Shown here: piece after piece, positions 3,724 through 34,099 of the stretch
Position numbering within the stretch: the stretch's first letter is position 1
Layout: each line of letters begins with the position of its first letter
IMG/VR virus record: IMGVR_UViG_3300025322_000532
Location: 1 to 52,689 of that record
Source of the DNA: a virus
DNA: 52,689 nucleotides
Direction: 5' to 3' (one strand)
The notes under the pieces: model-generated
Databases searched by the model: none
What the model was told of the DNA's origin: nothing
What the model saw: the letters and a program-made list of their open reading frames with translations, nothing else
Translations under genes and position numbers: made by a program

Positions 3724-6661
3724 GTTCCGTCAGCCTGTCCTCAAGGATCCGGATGGCTCCCACCCGCTTCTTCCCGGCCCGCTCTTCCTGCAGCCATTGT
3801 AGTAAGGTCGAGTCCTCCGCGTCAACCGCCGCGCTTGAAATCTGAGCGATGGTCATGTCGTCGGTCTTGCGCGGATCGGGGCCGGGCATCTCCGGGAAAT
3901 CGGGCATCGCCGGCGGGCCGGTGACTTCAACCGGGACCCGGATGCGCTGGCGCTCGGGAGCCTTCTGGACAGTCAGGAAGTCGGGCTTGCCTTTCCGGCT
4001 CCGGCCCAAGAGAACCTCGGCATCGCTGGAGATCACGTACTTCGGCTCGTTGCGGTGGAAGACGTAGACGGTGTTCGTGATCGGGCCCCGGATCGTGACT
4101 TTCCCGTCTCCTGGCCCTTGGTAAGCCAGTAGCGTCATCGGGCCTTCGAGCGCGGCCTGCATCCTGGCACCGAGCGCCGGATTGGAACTCGGATTGATGC
4201 TGGCCTTCGCTTTCCCTGGACAACCTCCGCAGGGCATGGTCTTTCTCCTCTCGTAGTAATCGGCCCAGTTGCGCCGGATCATCTTGAGTATAGCGTCTTT
4301 CTTGCCGAAGCTGTCCTCCCGGATGGTCCCGGTCCGGAACCGGTAGATGAATCCGGGGATGGGCACCCGGTAGCTGCAGACCCCCGCGGCCTGGAGGGCA
4401 ATCAGGTAATCCCAGTCCTCCCACCCCGGCATCGTCTCGTTGTAGCCTTCGACTTCCTCATGTGCCCACTTTGGAATCAGACAGGTCATGGCGTGCCGCA
4501 TCTTGATCAACACGTCCCCGCAGCGGAACTCGTCGGACTCGACCATCTGCATCGGCTCGCGTGGATCCGGTTCTGCTTTCAGCCAGTCGGTGTAGATCAG
4601 GCCGCCGCCGGTCCCGATGTGATAGGCGTACATCTCTTCCAATGCATTCGAGAGCAGCATGTCATCCGCATCGAGCAGAAAGATCGCCTCCGAAACCGCG
4701 TGGCGGGCCGCGAGATTGCGGGCCTGGGACGGCCGCATGAGCTGTCCAGGATCAATCACTTTCGCCCACGGACAGCCGGCGACCGGGGAATCGAATTGGT
4801 CTGCGCTCGGCCAAGCCTTGCCCGTCGCGTTGACAACAATCGCTTCCCAGTCCTGAAAGGTCTGGGCCAAGACCGAATCGAGCGCGTCGATGACGTACTT
4901 CTCGTGCCCCGGCCCGACGGGGATCAGGACCGAGACTCTGGGACTCACTCGATCCGGAACCGGCCAGAAGCGCACCCCCGGAGGTGGGTCTCCCTGGGCC
5001 GACCACGGCACCATGTCCTCGTTCGGATGCCCGATGCTGGTCCGCATGAGCGCCGCCCCGTCCTTGCCGTTGTCGGCTCCCAACCGCCAGGGAAACTCCA
5101 GCGTCCAATCCCCGTCGCCGGGTTCTCCCTGCGACTTGGAATCCGACCGCCAGCGGTAGACCAAGGTCGCGGCTTCGGTGACTTTCTGGATCTTGAACCC
5201 GAAGCTGGAGGCGAGGATCCACAACGGCGCATCCTCGGCTCGCCAATGGCGAGTTCTGTAGCCTCCAGTCCGCTCCATGACCTCCCGCCTCATCAGCGCG
5301 GAGTAGGGGAGCTGGTTGAGGTGCGCCATCTGGGCCCGCCAGTTGTACTGCGCGAACGGCCAGGAGTTCCGTTGACGGTTTGTTCCGTCCTCGCTCACCG
5401 TGTCCAGATGCCCATAGGCCACATGGATCGATGGGTCTTGATCCAGCACGCCCGCGAGGGTTCGTAGCGCGTGTTCGGCCAGCATATCATCGGCATCCAG
5501 AAACAGAATGTACCGGCCCTTGGCGTGGGTGAACCCGAAGTTGCGAGCGCCAGGGAGCTTCAGATTTTCGGGCGTTCGGAGGTAACGGAAGCGGGGATCC
5601 TGCTGAGACCGAACAATGGAGACCGGATCGTCCGCGCTCGCATCGTCAATGACGAGGCATTCCCAGTCCTGGAAATCCTGCGCCGCCACAGAAGCCAGGC
5701 AGTCGCCAAGATACCGAGCGAGATTGTGAGTCGTGACCACCACCGAGACCTTGACTGCTTGGGCATCCCACCAAAGCCGCGCCCGTTTGAAGAGATCCGC
5801 ATATTGCTCAATCCTCCGTTCCCAGCCCCAGCGGGTCACGACATCGTGGCGGGCATTGGCTCCTAAGACATCCCGGTTCTCCAACGCCCACTGCAGGCCC
5901 TCGGCTAGGGCCTCGTAGTCTCCAGGCTCGGCCAGAAATCCGGTCTCAGTATGCTTGACGATTTCGGCCTGCCCGCCCCAGTTCCAGCCCACGACCGGGA
6001 CTCCGCAGCTCATCGCTTCAAGCGTCCCGATTCCGAAGGTCTCACGCGCGGTCGCGAGATAGACCCCGGAATTTCGCACGATTTCCCGCATGTCCCCGAC
6101 CGGCATGACCCCGAGGATCTGGATATTGGACGGCGCGGGACCCGGCGCAATCGTGGACTGAAACGCCACATTCGGGACTCGCTTCGCGACCTCGATCAGG
6201 TCATAGGGATCGCTGACCGGATCGGCGCGGGCTTTGTTCCAGAGCACCGTCGGCCGCCAGTTGCCGGAAGGAGTCCATTCGTCCGAATCGACTCCGTGGT
6301 ACACGACCTCGGGATAGACCAGCATGCCTCGGCGCAGGGCCCGGGCGACCCATTCGCTCGGCGCGGTATGGAATTGGGCGCGGGCCATCGCCCGGACGAC
6401 TTCCCGATTGGCCTCATGTGCCCAATTCGGCCAGTCATAGCGACTCCAATAGCAGCCATGATTCGCGTTCACGATCGGGCGGTCCGGCGGCATATCCACG
6501 ACCATCGTCCCATGCGTGCAGACGACATCGGCCTCCCGCCAGCCCGTGACCGGTTCGATCCCGAACTGCGGGAGGTACTTCCACATGGCCTCAGAGACCC
6601 GGCGGATGCCGCCGTCGCCGTGATCCGGCTTGGCCCACGTAGGGATTATTGCGACCTTCAC
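3701..6661 (-). CDS. three-domain glycosyltransferase (GT4-GT2-GT2) with virion-like C-terminus
   Basis: The 986-aa protein joins three catalytic modules. Residues about 1-295 are a GT-B, GT4-like domain with the donor-site signature ETFGIGTLEAMSCGVPVVGW. Residues about 304-510 are a GT-A, GT2 domain (VSVVVTTHN, VIDDAS, LFLDADDML). Residues about 575-800 are a second GT2 domain (VSVLIPVGPGHE, FLLDADDML). From residue 809 the sequence changes character: MPCGGCPGKAKASINPSS, then a beta-rich stretch (RGPITNTVYVFHRNEPKYV) resembling small phage structural proteins. It may build a short glycan on a virion protein or host surface polymer. The 6658-6661 overlap couples it to the epimerase. Confidence 0.85.
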   Translation of the reverse strand: MKVAIIPTWAKPDHGDGGIRRVSEAMWKYLPQFGIEPVTGWREADVVCTHGTMVVDMPPDRPIVNANHGCYWSRYDWPNWAHEANREVVRAMARAQFHTAPSEWVARALRRGMLVYPEVVYHGVDSDEWTPSGNWRPTVLWNKARADPVSDPYDLIEVAKRVPNVAFQSTIAPGPAPSNIQILGVMPVGDMREIVRNSGVYLATARETFGIGTLEAMSCGVPVVGWNWGGQAEIVKHTETGFLAEPGDYEALAEGLQWALENRDVLGANARHDVVTRWGWERRIEQYADLFKRARLWWDAQAVKVSVVVTTHNLARYLGDCLASVAAQDFQDWECLVIDDASADDPVSIVRSQQDPRFRYLRTPENLKLPGARNFGFTHAKGRYILFLDADDMLAEHALRTLAGVLDQDPSIHVAYGHLDTVSEDGTNRQRNSWPFAQYNWRAQMAHLNQLPYSALMRREVMERTGGYRTRHWRAEDAPLWILASSFGFKIQKVTEAATLVYRWRSDSKSQGEPGDGDWTLEFPWRLGADNGKDGAALMRTSIGHPNEDMVPWSAQGDPPPGVRFWPVPDRVSPRVSVLIPVGPGHEKYVIDALDSVLAQTFQDWEAIVVNATGKAWPSADQFDSPVAGCPWAKVIDPGQLMRPSQARNLAARHAVSEAIFLLDADDMLLSNALEEMYAYHIGTGGGLIYTDWLKAEPDPREPMQMVESDEFRCGDVLIKMRHAMTCLIPKWAHEEVEGYNETMPGWEDWDYLIALQAAGVCSYRVPIPGFIYRFRTGTIREDSFGKKDAILKMIRRNWADYYERRKTMPCGGCPGKAKASINPSSNPALGARMQAALEGPMTLLAYQGPGDGKVTIRGPITNTVYVFHRNEPKYVISSDAEVLLGRSRKGKPDFLTVQKAPERQRIRVPVEVTGPPAMPDFPEMPGPDPRKTDDMTIAQISSAAVDAEDSTLLQWLQEERAGKKRVGAIRILEDRLTERASPEPA

Positions 6662-10453: not shown

Positions 10454-11908
10454 CTAGTTCCAGTCGGTGTACAGGCTCGGGGCCGGCCGAGACGTTACGC
10501 CGCCGTCCACGAAGTACGGATCCTCAGGGTGGACGTCCCTCGGGTGCTGCAGAGGCTCGTACCGAACGTTCTGAATCCGGCCCGCAATCTGCGGGGTCCG
10601 GAGCACGATTCTCGGCTCGATCTTGGACTCCCAGACCACGCACCAGTTCACGTTGTCCCAGGTCCAGAGATACATGCCGTCATCGGTCCAGAACTGATTG
10701 GTGAGCCGACCCTGCACCATCGCCTGGGTCGCCCCGGCCCGATAGTCAAAGTGCTGCCAGAAGGTGACGGGAGTCGCGCCCATTGCGGTGAGCGGCACGA
10801 GGTAGACGTCGCTCGCGAACTGGCCGCCGTTGATCGCCGCGGCATCGGCTTCGGTTTCCTCCAGGATGAAATCATCCAGGACCACCGGGACTCGAACCCC
10901 ATCGACCAACAGGTAGTTACCATTCCGCATCGCGTCCCGCAGTGCTACCTGATCGGGGCCGTTGATCACCAGCCGCTCGTTCCCGGTCGTATTGCAGCGG
11001 TAGCTGTAATATTCGCAGGCCCAGATGTCGGTGATCTCCCAGAACAAGGCGGTCCGCATGACCCAGGTCCAGCGCGCCGGATTGAGTCCGGTCGATTGGG
11101 CGATGTGGTTGACGAACCGCCACATGGTCGTCATCACCCGCACGATGTCGGGGCTGGTCGCTGAATCGCTGACCAGGCCGTAGTTGAAGTTCTTGACATC
11201 GGATCTCAGCGAAGGGCAGTCCTGGCCGGTCAGTGCGTCCTGCTTGTTCGTTCCGATCAGAAGATCGAGGCCCTGAAACTCCTCGTAGCCTCCGCCCGCG
11301 CTGTTGTTGGCCGGGGATCCGACGTAAGTCTGACGCCCGAGCCGGTTCGAGAACGCGATCCCGAGCTCCAGCATCCGGGCGAGAACCTCCGCGCCCGCCG
11401 CCAGCTGGGCCTGTCCCGATAGATTCGGGAAGATCGAGGCCCCGAGTTCCGGAGCCAGGGGATCGTTCAGGAGCCGCAGGTCATTGAACTCCCCGCGGCT
11501 GATCAGCTGCCCGATCCGGTTGATCTCGAGCTCCCGGCTCATGAACGAGTAACGCCCAAACGGAGCGGTTTGCAGACAGGTCTTGAGCTGGCCGGCGGTC
11601 TCCGGGTCATCGCAGACATTCACCGGAACGGTCCCGGTCACGTCCTGAAAGCCCGTGATGTAGCCGAACAGCGGGTGAGTGAATTGGCTGGCGAACGTGG
11701 GCAGGATTGCCGCCAATCCATTCGGGGCGATCCGGGTATGGAAGAGGTCACGCTCGACTCCCTCCACTCCGAACAGCCCGCCCGGGCCGTGCATATACGC
11801 CCCGACCGGGGTTCCCGAAGCCGTCACCTTCTGTTGGAAGGAGCCGCCGTTCAGGATGAGCTGCTTCAGGGCTTCGGTGACTTGCTCTTGTGTCGCGTTA
11901 GGGAACAT
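10454..11908 (-). CDS. major capsid protein
   Basis: The 484-aa product follows the protease-scaffold gene and is followed by a strong terminator, the usual setting of a major capsid gene. The sequence fits a large capsid protein: a helical N-terminus (TQEQVTEALKQLILNGGSFQ), long beta-rich regions and aromatic clusters (WVMRTALFWEITDIWACEYYSY). It lacks an easily recognised HK97 signature, so the call rests on position and length. A GAGGTGG ribosome site precedes the ATG. Confidence 0.78.
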   Translation of the reverse strand: MFPNATQEQVTEALKQLILNGGSFQQKVTASGTPVGAYMHGPGGLFGVEGVERDLFHTRIAPNGLAAILPTFASQFTHPLFGYITGFQDVTGTVPVNVCDDPETAGQLKTCLQTAPFGRYSFMSRELEINRIGQLISRGEFNDLRLLNDPLAPELGASIFPNLSGQAQLAAGAEVLARMLELGIAFSNRLGRQTYVGSPANNSAGGGYEEFQGLDLLIGTNKQDALTGQDCPSLRSDVKNFNYGLVSDSATSPDIVRVMTTMWRFVNHIAQSTGLNPARWTWVMRTALFWEITDIWACEYYSYRCNTTGNERLVINGPDQVALRDAMRNGNYLLVDGVRVPVVLDDFILEETEADAAAINGGQFASDVYLVPLTAMGATPVTFWQHFDYRAGATQAMVQGRLTNQFWTDDGMYLWTWDNVNWCVVWESKIEPRIVLRTPQIAGRIQNVRYEPLQHPRDVHPEDPYFVDGGVTSRPAPSLYTDWN

Positions 11909-26162: not shown

Positions 26163-27467
26163 CTAGGCTGACACGAGCTTCGGTTTGAGGCCCATCTGAC
26201 TCAGGCGTTCGAGGGTGACGGCGACATAGGCTGGATTGATTTCAATGCCGCGGCCTTTGCGGCCAAGCTGTTCACAGGCGACAAATGTAGTACCGGAACC
26301 CAGGAAATTGTCGTATACGATGTCGCCCTGATCCGTGTGATTCCAGATCGCGTTGGCGGGAAGTTCGACTGGCTTCATGGTCGAATGCTCCGGGCTGGCC
26401 CGCGGTTTATCGACCGGCCAGACCGAGGCATGGAACGCTCCCGCCTTGCGTCGCTTGTGGGTCTTCTTCCAACCGAACAAGATCGGTTCATGCTGATAAT
26501 CGTAGTCAAGACGGCCGAGCGAAAACGTCGGCGCATTCTTAATCCAAATGAGGACATGGCGAACCGGAAGCCCAGCCTCCATCATCATCATCATCATCAT
26601 CAGGCCGAGCGAGCCACCCTGCGGGGCACAAACGAAGTAAGCGCAGTCGTCGGCCATGACAAGTTCACGGGTGATCTGATAGGCCAAAAGTAGCAGATCA
26701 TGGAGATCTTTTTCATTGAGGGTATCGCCTTCAATGTCCTCTAAACGCCGTCCAGCCTTCTGGACGGCGTTTAGCATGCGATTCTTCTGGCCCACCCCAA
26801 CGCCATAAGGCGGATCACTGAAAATGCAGGTGGCTTTCAAGCCTTCCATGAGTTGCCCAACTATGGCCCGATCCGTGCAATCCCCACAGATCAACCGATG
26901 ATCGCCAATCTGCCAAAGCTGGCCGAGTTCGGTGCCCCATTTCTTTTGAAGCTCTGTGGCGCGGTCAATCTCGGGTTCGGGCGGTTCAGGCCCAAGCAGC
27001 TCTGGCCGATACAGCCGGATCAGCTGGTCTACATCATCCCGGTCGTAGCCAGTTCCATCCAAGTTCCCATTCGAGAGCGAGATCAGCGCATCGACCAGCC
27101 GCGGTTCATCCCAGCCCCCGAGTTCGACCATCCGGTTGTCGGCGATGGTGTAGGCTTTGCCGGCCTGGGCGCCGAGCCGGATACCCATCACGACCGGGGC
27201 CAGCCATTCGCCGTCCTTGACCCGCACACCCTCAGGCGGCGGTTTGCCGTCCGCCTTCAACATCTTGAGCTCATCAAGCCGCCCATGTCCCGCAAGCAGA
27301 CGCCCGTTGCTTTCGTTCAGAACCATAGGCGCGACGTAGCCGAAGCGGTCCATCGACTGCATGAGCGCACCTAAGTCGTGAAGCTTGGCGTTGTCAGGAT
27401 CGGGTTTGATCTTCGAGAGCGGCAGGTACTCGATCCGTAGCTCCCGTTGCTTCTTGGCTTTGGGCAA
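26163..27467 (-). CDS. ParB-like domain fused to DNA amino-methyltransferase
   Basis: The 434-aa protein starts with a ParB/Srx domain (LRIEYLPLSKIKPDPDNAKLH, GRLLAGHGRLDELK) and continues as a beta-class N6A/N4C methyltransferase with catalytic IFSDPPYGVG near residue 212 and the SAM motif YDNFLGSGTTFVA near 390. This fusion is common in phages, near the terminase genes, and may protect phage DNA from restriction or mark packaging DNA. No cognate nuclease is present, so it is an orphan. A run of seven Met codons lies between the two motifs. Confidence 0.9.
   Translation of the reverse strand: MPKAKKQRELRIEYLPLSKIKPDPDNAKLHDLGALMQSMDRFGYVAPMVLNESNGRLLAGHGRLDELKMLKADGKPPPEGVRVKDGEWLAPVVMGIRLGAQAGKAYTIADNRMVELGGWDEPRLVDALISLSNGNLDGTGYDRDDVDQLIRLYRPELLGPEPPEPEIDRATELQKKWGTELGQLWQIGDHRLICGDCTDRAIVGQLMEGLKATCIFSDPPYGVGVGQKNRMLNAVQKAGRRLEDIEGDTLNEKDLHDLLLLAYQITRELVMADDCAYFVCAPQGGSLGLMMMMMMMEAGLPVRHVLIWIKNAPTFSLGRLDYDYQHEPILFGWKKTHKRRKAGAFHASVWPVDKPRASPEHSTMKPVELPANAIWNHTDQGDIVYDNFLGSGTTFVACEQLGRKGRGIEINPAYVAVTLERLSQMGLKPKLVSA
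26580..26600. repeat. (CAT)7 trinucleotide repeat encoding seven Met
   Basis: Seven perfect tandem CAT units on the plus strand read as seven ATG codons on the minus strand within the methyltransferase (GSLGL-M7-EAG). Slippage would change length in frame, not disrupt the gene. Confidence 0.95.
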
Positions 27468-28617: not shown

Positions 28618-28681
28618 GCTTATATAGTACTTGACAAACGAAAAACGTCAAGTATAATTATTTCGTACGAAGGAGCTTCCG
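28618..28681. promoter_or_regulatory. divergent early/late promoter with operator-like dyad
   Basis: On the plus strand TTGACA (28631-28636) and TATAAT (28653-28658) are perfect sigma-70 boxes 16 nt apart, followed by GAAGGAG before the ATG at 28682. On the minus strand TTGACG (28650-28645) and TACTAT (28628-28623) are 16 nt apart, close to the ATG at 28617. An 8-bp perfect inverted repeat, TACTTGAC (28628-28635) and GTCAAGTA (28647-28654) with an 11-nt spacer, overlaps both -35 boxes, so one bound protein could switch both directions. Confidence 0.88.
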
Positions 28682-32829: not shown

Positions 32830-32852
32830 GCCGAAGCCGTGGCGATTGACGG

Positions 32853-32881
32853 TTGACAGGATGCGAGGCTAGACTTATCAT
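32853..32881 (+). promoter_or_regulatory. sigma-70 promoter in front of the non-coding block
   Basis: TTGACA (32853-32858) and TATCAT (32876-32881) are separated by the ideal 17 nt. Transcription would start near 32888, just at the first helix of the structured block and far from any good ribosome site. Confidence 0.75.
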
Positions 32882-32887
32882 GTGTTT

Positions 32888-33190
32888 GTGCCTGGGAAGC
32901 ATGGAATTGGCGTTCATCGTCCAGCGGGGTCTGCGGGAGAAGTTGTGGCTTCCCAGGCCTCCGCAAACCCCCTGGACAATGAGCGCCAGTCGTTTAACGG
33001 CGGGTGCTGCGTTGCCGCCTTACCAAACGCGCATCCACATAGCGCCCTCATACGCGGGACAGCCTCGGAACCCTTCCGCATCGGCGCACAAAAGTCCAGA
33101 TGCTCAGACCGTCCGCGCCCTGAGGGGTGCTTCAGCTCAGGGTAAAGCGCGACCTGGACCGTCCTCGCCGATCTTGGCTGAGGTGGCTGA
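32888..33190 (+). ncRNA. putative structured non-coding RNA
   Basis: No credible gene covers this stretch, an outlier in a genome where genes overlap by four bases. Helices seen by eye: GCCTGGGAAGC (32890-32900) with GCTTCCCAGGC (32948-32958); an imperfect long helix GGCGTTCATCGTCCAG (from 32908) with CTGGACAATGAGCGCC (to about 32988), which crosses the first helix and so implies a pseudoknot or a switch; CGTTT-GGCGG (32991-33003) with CCGCC-AAACG (33015-33029); GTCCAG (33094-33099) with CTGGAC (33154-33159), enclosing GCGC/GCGC and CCCTGAG/CTCAGGG; and CCTC/GAGG near 33163-33183. The RNA class is not recognised. It could instead be a structured leader of the HNH gene or a replication origin. 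Confidence 0.6.
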
Positions 33191-33283
33191 AGCATGATGT
33201 GGGCCATCCACTGTAACGTCCGATGGCGCCTGAAACCCCGACCCTTGAGGCTGGGGATCATCGCGCCTGAAATCGGAAGGAAA

Positions 33284-33700
33284 GTGAATGTGACCTACGT
33301 CAAGCCAAAGAAGGCACCTTCCAATCCGATGATTCTCCCCGACGTTCCAGGAACCTCTTCGCGGTGCCGAGCAATAACAGCAAGCGGAAGACAGTGCAAG
33401 GGGTGGGTTCGTTTCGGTGGCTTCTGTCATATTCATGATCCGCAAGGAACGTATCAGAACAGCGGCAAGACGAAACGGACTTTGCCAGTCATTTACAGGG
33501 ATTACCTCCGCTCCGAACATTGGCTGACGTTTCGTAGCAAAGCACTTGAGCATTACGGTTATCGGTGTGCGAACTGTCAAGCTAAACGAGAGGACGTAAC
33601 GCTAGATGTGCATCATCTAACCTACGAAACTCTTTGGCATGAGACAGTCGATGATGTTCTGGTGGTTTGTCGGAAATGCCACATAGAGCTGACCGCTTGA
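33284..33700 (+). CDS. HNH endonuclease with N-terminal Cys/His motif
   Basis: About 138 aa from a GTG preceded by GGAAGG; an ATG 30 codons upstream would extend it into the structured block with no family support. The N-terminal part has RCRAITASGRQCKGWVRFG then FCHIHD. The C-terminal part is an HNH domain: HYGYRCANCQAKR, LDVHHLTYETLWHE, LVVCRKCHIEL. Small HNH proteins of this type are usually mobile nicking or homing enzymes, sometimes linked to packaging. Composition is slightly AT-rich. Confidence 0.82.
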   Translation: MNVTYVKPKKAPSNPMILPDVPGTSSRCRAITASGRQCKGWVRFGGFCHIHDPQGTYQNSGKTKRTLPVIYRDYLRSEHWLTFRSKALEHYGYRCANCQAKREDVTLDVHHLTYETLWHETVDDVLVVCRKCHIELTA

Positions 33701-33742
33701 GCGAAGCCTCGTGGCTCCGACAGGTGAAGATAGTCGCGCCTA

Positions 33743-34099
33743 ATGATCGACCATCAGTCAGAACGAGTATTAGGGCAAACGAACCCCGATCCGCTAAGCG
33801 AGGTCCTAGGCACAGGATATAGCAGGTTTCAATCGCCTACTGGGATTGATGGCTTGGCGAAAGAGGAAAAGGATCGGCTTGATCTACTGGCATTCAACGC
33901 GCTGGTTCCGGGCATCGGTCAGTTTCGGAGATTCATTCAGCGATGTAAACGGGAGTACGAAACGATCTGCATCTGGGAGATCTGGAATCCGATGCTTCAT
34001 GAAGTCCTGCAGCGGTATGGCTTTCGGGCCTACTCGGAAAAGGATCGTGATACAGGAGAACTGCTTGAAGGGTATCGCTATGATGCCGGGAGCAGGTGA
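33743..34099 (+). CDS. hypothetical protein
   Basis: A 118-aa protein without a clear ribosome site. Contains IGQFRRFIQRCKREYETICI and HEVLQRYGFRAYSEKDRDTG, the latter vaguely like the end of an acetyltransferase fold, which is not enough for a call. Function unknown. Confidence 0.65.
   Translation: MIDHQSERVLGQTNPDPLSEVLGTGYSRFQSPTGIDGLAKEEKDRLDLLAFNALVPGIGQFRRFIQRCKREYETICIWEIWNPMLHEVLQRYGFRAYSEKDRDTGELLEGYRYDAGSR

Follow-up and report, generated by a model that had tools for sequence, protein, structure and literature searches.

The locus

The window analyzed here, an IMG/VR phage record, is 52,689 b long; between a gene for 61 aa and the gene at 33743, its plus strand carries a promoter (32853-32881), two interleaved helices that we call A and B, an HNH homing-type endonuclease gene (33292-33700) and a short conserved sequence (33691-33746). 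A preliminary description of the segment 32853-33190 had reported the promoter as near-consensus, and this is borne out by our analysis. The sigma-70-type match TTGACA-N17-TATCAT (TTGACA at 32853-32858, a 17-nt spacer and TATCAT at 32876-32881) scores 11/12, a level at which about 0.15 sites of that score or better are expected across the whole window, and it places the predicted transcript start at G32888, 6 nt past the -10 box. The sole better match in the window, 12/12 at 28631, lies upstream of the early operon: it is a perfect sigma-70 consensus promoter (TTGACA-N16-TATAAT, 28631-28658) ahead of the rightward operon.

Helix A is an exact pairing of 11 bp between 32890-32900 (GCCTGGGAAGC) and 32948-32958 (GCTTCCCAGGC), and helix B is an imperfect one of 29 pairs between 32906-32937 and 32960-32990. 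The arms follow the order A5-B5-A3-B3, with the 5′ arm of A upstream of B and its 3′ arm within the apical loop of B, so that the perfect helix, the imperfect one of about 30 positions and their interleaving were all correctly drawn at first sight. The segment 32886-32995 has a folding energy of -56.0 kcal/mol (z -4.5), which none of 200 shuffles equaled, and the most extreme GC-corrected fold of the window is the 110-nt fold that starts at 32901. Since helices of at least 11 bp at short range are found five times in the window, an 11-bp helix A alone would be unremarkable. This recurrence and the foreign composition of the HNH gene are what can be said for chance inverted repeats in foreign DNA imported with that gene, a reading that we find hardly credible because, as described below, compensated helices in five phages refute it and relatives of the RNA occur without HNH.

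Because the linker between A and B measures only 5 nt, the full helix B and helix A may be hard to combine in the window copy. Mutual exclusion of the two on steric grounds was considered and dropped, as a helix A folded back along B could permit both. Folding predicted step by step on a growing chain has only A when the chain is about 70-85 nt long, and B takes its place once about 90 nt are reached.

Downstream of helix B the picture is less rich than first proposed. The borders 32853-33190 are wrong, since conservation of the 5′ domain stops near 32992 and a second conserved piece, belonging to the 3′ part, is found at 33691-33746. The domain drawn between GTCCAG (33094-33099) and CTGGAC (33154-33159) does not hold up either, with z -1.3 for 33090-33200 and no counterpart in the relatives, and the further folds drawn in that segment are no better than shuffles. 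A TTTAAC segment followed by a hairpin (32991-33031) is a possible, weak counterpart of a hairpin of the relatives, M1 (model matches of 12.7-13.4 bits in the related loci L154 and L156, by itself not significant). Every one of the six frames of 32880-33290 has a negative codon score, while most neighboring genes score positively, and a missed protein gene there was rejected on these grounds. The original statement that the segment holds no plausible gene stands as regards codon scores; it is weakened by the GTG or ATG found at the predicted starts, with which the region is perhaps not purely non-coding.

Relatives of the RNA

Nucleotide searches in phages and plasmids returned no match for the RNA, and the nearest phage, L002, is collinear with the window but has a different sequence between window positions 32838 and 34080. 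A degenerate pattern of helix B recovered L031, which is 86% identical to the window over 108 nt (32888-32995) and 82% over 56 nt (33691-33746), with unrelated sequence between. A 3′-domain pattern derived via L031 recovered L153, L154, L155 and L156, the RNA of L155 being identical to that of L153. The window piece at 33691-33746, the terminal part of this 3′ domain (34.9 bits with model R2), shares 98% identity over 51 nt with L153/L155 and 90% with L154 and L156. The five relatives all match the 3′-domain model with E values of 1e-31 or below, and the window matches it at 7e-7; there is no convincing match in 19 other related records, and a search for the 3′ domain in three draws of about 395 genomes, from three phyla, gave no match.

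The exact helix-A pattern found no match; the pattern GGGGTCTGCG...CGCAAACCCC gave, apart from L031, two chance matches only, both in one protein-coding-like stretch; and a 17-mer had at least 119 matches in genome contigs, none homologous by blastn past the 17-mer region. A descriptor of the A/B arrangement itself, used in a scan of phage loci, selected L002: this sister phage has an A/B element at the same locus, without sequence similarity, and lacks the 3′ RNA. The A/B element is absent from eighteen other related-phage loci.

Covariation and the level of selection

L153/L155 and L156, found via the 3′ domain alone, also have the A/B order (L154 does not reach the 5′ end), and the A/B domain of L153 and L156 is therefore an independent test. 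Their helix A reads GTGGGCAAGAG/CTCTTGCCCAC and GTGGACTTGGC/GCCAAGTCCAC, respectively, sequences unlike the window's, and that of L002 reads TGCTCTCAGGC/GCCTGAGAGCA, next to a helix B of -62 kcal/mol. Over five sequences helix A is paired in 55 of 55 cells, exclusively by Watson-Crick pairs, and all 11 pairs are changed on both sides. No shuffle out of 500 showed pairing as high (100%), and slid controls reached 27-47%. Both arms of helix B have equivalents in L031, L153, L156 and L002. Among 2000 dinucleotide shuffles of each sequence, 0-1 yielded a helix A of at least 9 bp starting within +1 to +5 together with a helix B of -25 kcal/mol or lower. The descriptor accompanied by a promoter scoring 8/12 or more is present in 5/5 phage copies vs 0/40 descriptor matches in control DNA (0.9 Mb from unrelated bacteria, with a large share of GC-rich actinobacteria). 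Independent copies of the 5′ domain number only four or five, with L002 chosen by the descriptor itself, and those of the 3′ domain three or four. The covariation among related phages that the preliminary description had named as a check is thus strong and, with the promoter and the folds, bears out a structured RNA behind its own promoter. We conclude that the A/B domain is under selection as a structure, and it may also be translated.

Fold energies do not clearly prefer the sense strand: both strands fold about equally well, so that this measure does not distinguish between the RNA and the DNA level. The RNA level is favored because of the position of the start site. The promoters of L031 (TTGCCA-N17-TATGAT), L153 (TTGGCG-N16-TATGAT), L156 (TTGACG-N17-TATGCT) and L002 (TTGCGC-N16-TAGAAT), like that of the window, predict a start at helix A or up to 2 bases before it, in 5/5 copies. 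A DNA site would not need such a start, and a conserved 3′ domain also indicates a transcript; both points weigh against a role of A/B as DNA, in which it would form the hairpins or cruciform of a replication origin inside an initiator gene, as in the lambda origin within gene O, retained by phages without an O-like gene. The L002 element does lie within an O-like initiator gene, RecE/RecT-like genes are nearby in the phage, and a purely Watson-Crick helix A in a sequence that folds alike on both strands would suit such a site. On balance we judge an origin unlikely.

A predicted large RNA with a variable middle

Each complete copy consists of the promoter, the arms A5-B5-A3-B3 and the conserved 3′ domain, in a core of 520-590 nt. 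The L156 RNA, on the minus strand, begins at 4012 and ends at about 3425. It is flanked as in the window by the 61-aa gene upstream and a homolog of the 33743 gene downstream, and its parts are, in order, the A/B domain, the TTTAAC link, M1, a variable stretch with a tRNA-like domain and the 3′ domain. The tRNA-like domain (3762-3655, minus strand) has normal-looking D- and T-arms and a longer hairpin instead of the anticodon arm, and is not called by ARAGORN. In L153 an ORF of HTH plus MUG113/T5orf172 (GIY-YIG-like) separates the A/B domain from M1; at the same position L031 has 48 codons that match annotated phage proteins, and L154 has an ORF ahead of the 3′ domain. The mean column identity of the 3′ domain is 88% in four copies, with compensatory changes at two pairs only. 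Fold z values are -3.9 (L156) and -5.4 (L031) for the whole RNA and -4.8 to -5.9 for the 5′ domains.

Inside the RNA of the window lies the HNH gene, with a likely GTG start (33292) after GGAAGG and a frame open from 33194. Its product of about 136 aa matches PHROG HNH families (best 4.2e-08) and keeps the conserved Cys/His columns; it has no Pfam match and, in PHROGs, no match to a nuclease family other than HNH. The codon score of -0.28 marks the gene as foreign to the phage. No match to it exists among 19 related phage records or at the loci of the RNA relatives, the protein used as bait found no close relative in viral contigs or genome contigs, and four distant phage HNH loci gave no match to the 5′-domain model. 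The stop codon falls within the conserved RNA sequence GACCGCTTGAGCG, and the upstream remainder of the 3′ domain, present in the other copies, is missing before this point. In the window the HNH gene stands in place of the variable middle; it has replaced or interrupted both that part and the bulk of the 3′ domain, so that the window copy of the RNA is probably damaged and may be non-functional. The RNA relatives are better study objects.

A hairpin seen in the window only (33218-33281) overlaps the Shine-Dalgarno region of the HNH gene, GGAAGG; the fold of 33205-33290 has z -3.6, with none of 200 shuffles as good. This hairpin fits a control of the HNH gene at its ribosome-binding site. It resembles the stable hairpins over the ribosome-binding sites of homing endonuclease genes of T-even phages (I-TevI, segB and Aeh1 mobE; PMC2988022), with the differences that the gene lies here inside another structured RNA and that no late promoter was identified. 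The earlier suggestion of a leader controlling the HNH gene is contradicted, as far as a dedicated leader is meant, by relatives that have the RNA without HNH and by an RNA 3′ end downstream of this gene.

Endonuclease ORFs of the HNH and GIY-YIG-like types inside a conserved structured RNA bring to mind a self-splicing intron, of group I or II, bearing homing endonucleases, and the 3′ motif GAAGATAGTC recalls the P7 element of group I, which we counted in favor of an intron. The P7-like strands, however, do not covary, and cmscan gave no match to an intron model (up to E 10 for the window and L156, up to E 1-5 for the other copies). Each complete copy has its own promoter and no interrupted gene was found: the upstream 61-aa gene is complete and syntenic, and by inspection no split gene is seen. 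An intron is accordingly very unlikely, and the locus suggests that homing endonuclease genes settle in a phage RNA gene which is itself no recognizable intron.

Comparison with known RNA classes

With Rfam cmscan the window has no match at gathering thresholds or at E<=10, and the relatives have no family match (L031 at E<=5; L153, L154 and L156 at E<=1; L156 also at E<=10). Among the classes proposed earlier for comparison, GOLLD, ROOL, HEARO and the group I models gave no match in these searches, which supports the initial failure to place the RNA in a known class. ARAGORN finds no tRNA or tmRNA in the window or in the RNA relatives. Judged against Rfam and a limited set of open-access papers, these loci define a candidate RNA family outside Rfam.

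The closest parallels are GOLLD and ROOL, large phage RNAs with a variable linker that form RNA cages, the GOLLD linker sometimes holding tRNAs (PMC12286853). GOLLD is likewise large, ornate and phage-borne, with a conserved 3′ part, a less conserved 5′ part and a variable linker (PMC12286853), and our alignments follow the same plan, with a conserved 3′ part and a linker able to hold a tRNA, if the tRNA-like insert of L156, which is no ARAGORN call, is taken as such. It differs in that its covariance model finds no match here, in its length, often over 800 nt vs a core of 520-590 nt, and in that our RNAs have a 5′-terminal A/B pseudoknot at a start codon, inserted endonuclease genes and no ARAGORN tRNA genes. 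ROOL is phage-borne, of similar length, and has pseudoknots and a variable linker (PMC12286853); its covariance model finds no match either, and the gene neighbors of our RNAs are others. HEARO, the omega RNA of IscB, is also a structured RNA adjoining an HNH gene, but there is no Rfam match, the protein of about 136 aa has HNH matches only, and the RNA relatives lack HNH.

A possible leaderless message

The triplet at the predicted start is GTG in four copies, among them the window (32888-32890, opening a frame of 85 codons that ends with TAA at 33143-33145), and ATG in L002. Frame +1 is open in all five copies and leads in three of them into a recognizable protein: a replication-initiator-like HTH_36 protein in L002, the HTH plus MUG113/T5orf172 protein in L153 and a phage protein in L031. 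The L002 gene (11339-12028) has the ATG at the predicted start, and the A/B structure makes up its first 40 or so codons.

These observations give weight to an alternative in which A/B chiefly controls a leaderless message: the structure would hide or free the +1 start codon and so set the output of the downstream gene, the large 3′ RNA being a later addition. The start codon in 5/5 copies, the entry of the frame into known proteins (in L031 a C-terminal stretch of 48 codons) and L002, with A/B and no 3′ RNA, all speak for it. Against it, the L156 frame has 46 codons and no recognizable protein, and the differences between the window and L031 are spread 5/6/4 over codon positions 1/2/3, which is not protein-like and speaks against a selected peptide. 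Moreover, frame +2 is likewise open over long stretches in all copies, so that an open frame does not by itself show translation. We see this alternative as a tenable possibility, though not as the probable explanation.

Proposed model and its meaning

From the promoter match, the helices with their covariation, the homologs and the insertions, all of them computed, we consider it likely that the region forms the 5′ domain of a large structured phage RNA that is transcribed separately, and that in the window the HNH gene has replaced or interrupted the middle of this RNA and the greater part of its 3′ domain. In the relatives the core would comprise a promoter, a 5′-terminal A/B domain, a variable middle that tolerates genes or a tRNA-like domain, and a strongly conserved 3′ domain; the window would have kept an intact 5′ domain together with roughly the final 56 nt, the HNH gene bringing its own ribosome-binding-site hairpin. 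As helix A, about the first 11 nt of the RNA would pair with the apical loop of the long hairpin B. On the nascent chain A would form first and capture the 5′ end, including the GTG or ATG at +1, and B, far more stable, would form on completion of its own 3′ arm, after which A could persist as a pseudoknot between loop and 5′ end or re-form with another copy of the RNA. A 5′ end locked in this way might protect the RNA, and might restrict leaderless initiation to nascent transcripts.

A bolder combination of these elements, which we regard as improbable, would make one 5′ structure both the gate of a leaderless message and an assembly domain. Molecules would exchange helix A among themselves and so build an RNA-only particle, and the linker of the RNA would hold the endonucleases and the tRNA-like domain.

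To our knowledge very few large ornate phage RNAs have been described, and what they do is poorly understood where it is known at all. The candidate family adds to them RNAs whose 5′ end is predicted precisely and whose pseudoknot covaries strongly, with L031 and L156 as compact copies suited to structure work, and the sister form fused to a replication-initiator-like gene in L002 offers a direct route to the role of the 5′ domain.

Three further elements were observed in these phages. At 10784..10660 on the minus strand, L007 has two interleaved inverted repeats of 11-12 bp (GTGCCAACTCC/GGAGTTGGCAC and TCCTGCCACAGA/TCTGTGGCAGGA), with a spacing unlike that of A/B. The window has at 26741-26774 a perfect hairpin with 15-bp arms (CTAAACGCCGTCCAG) and a 4-nt loop. 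Finally, the mostly non-coding segment 31918-32043 of the window is 96% identical to L002 over 126 nt, vs about 70-89% for the neighboring genes, is also kept in L153 and L156 (83% over 92 nt) and folds at -52.6 kcal/mol with arms TCATCCCCCG; it is possibly a second conserved RNA.
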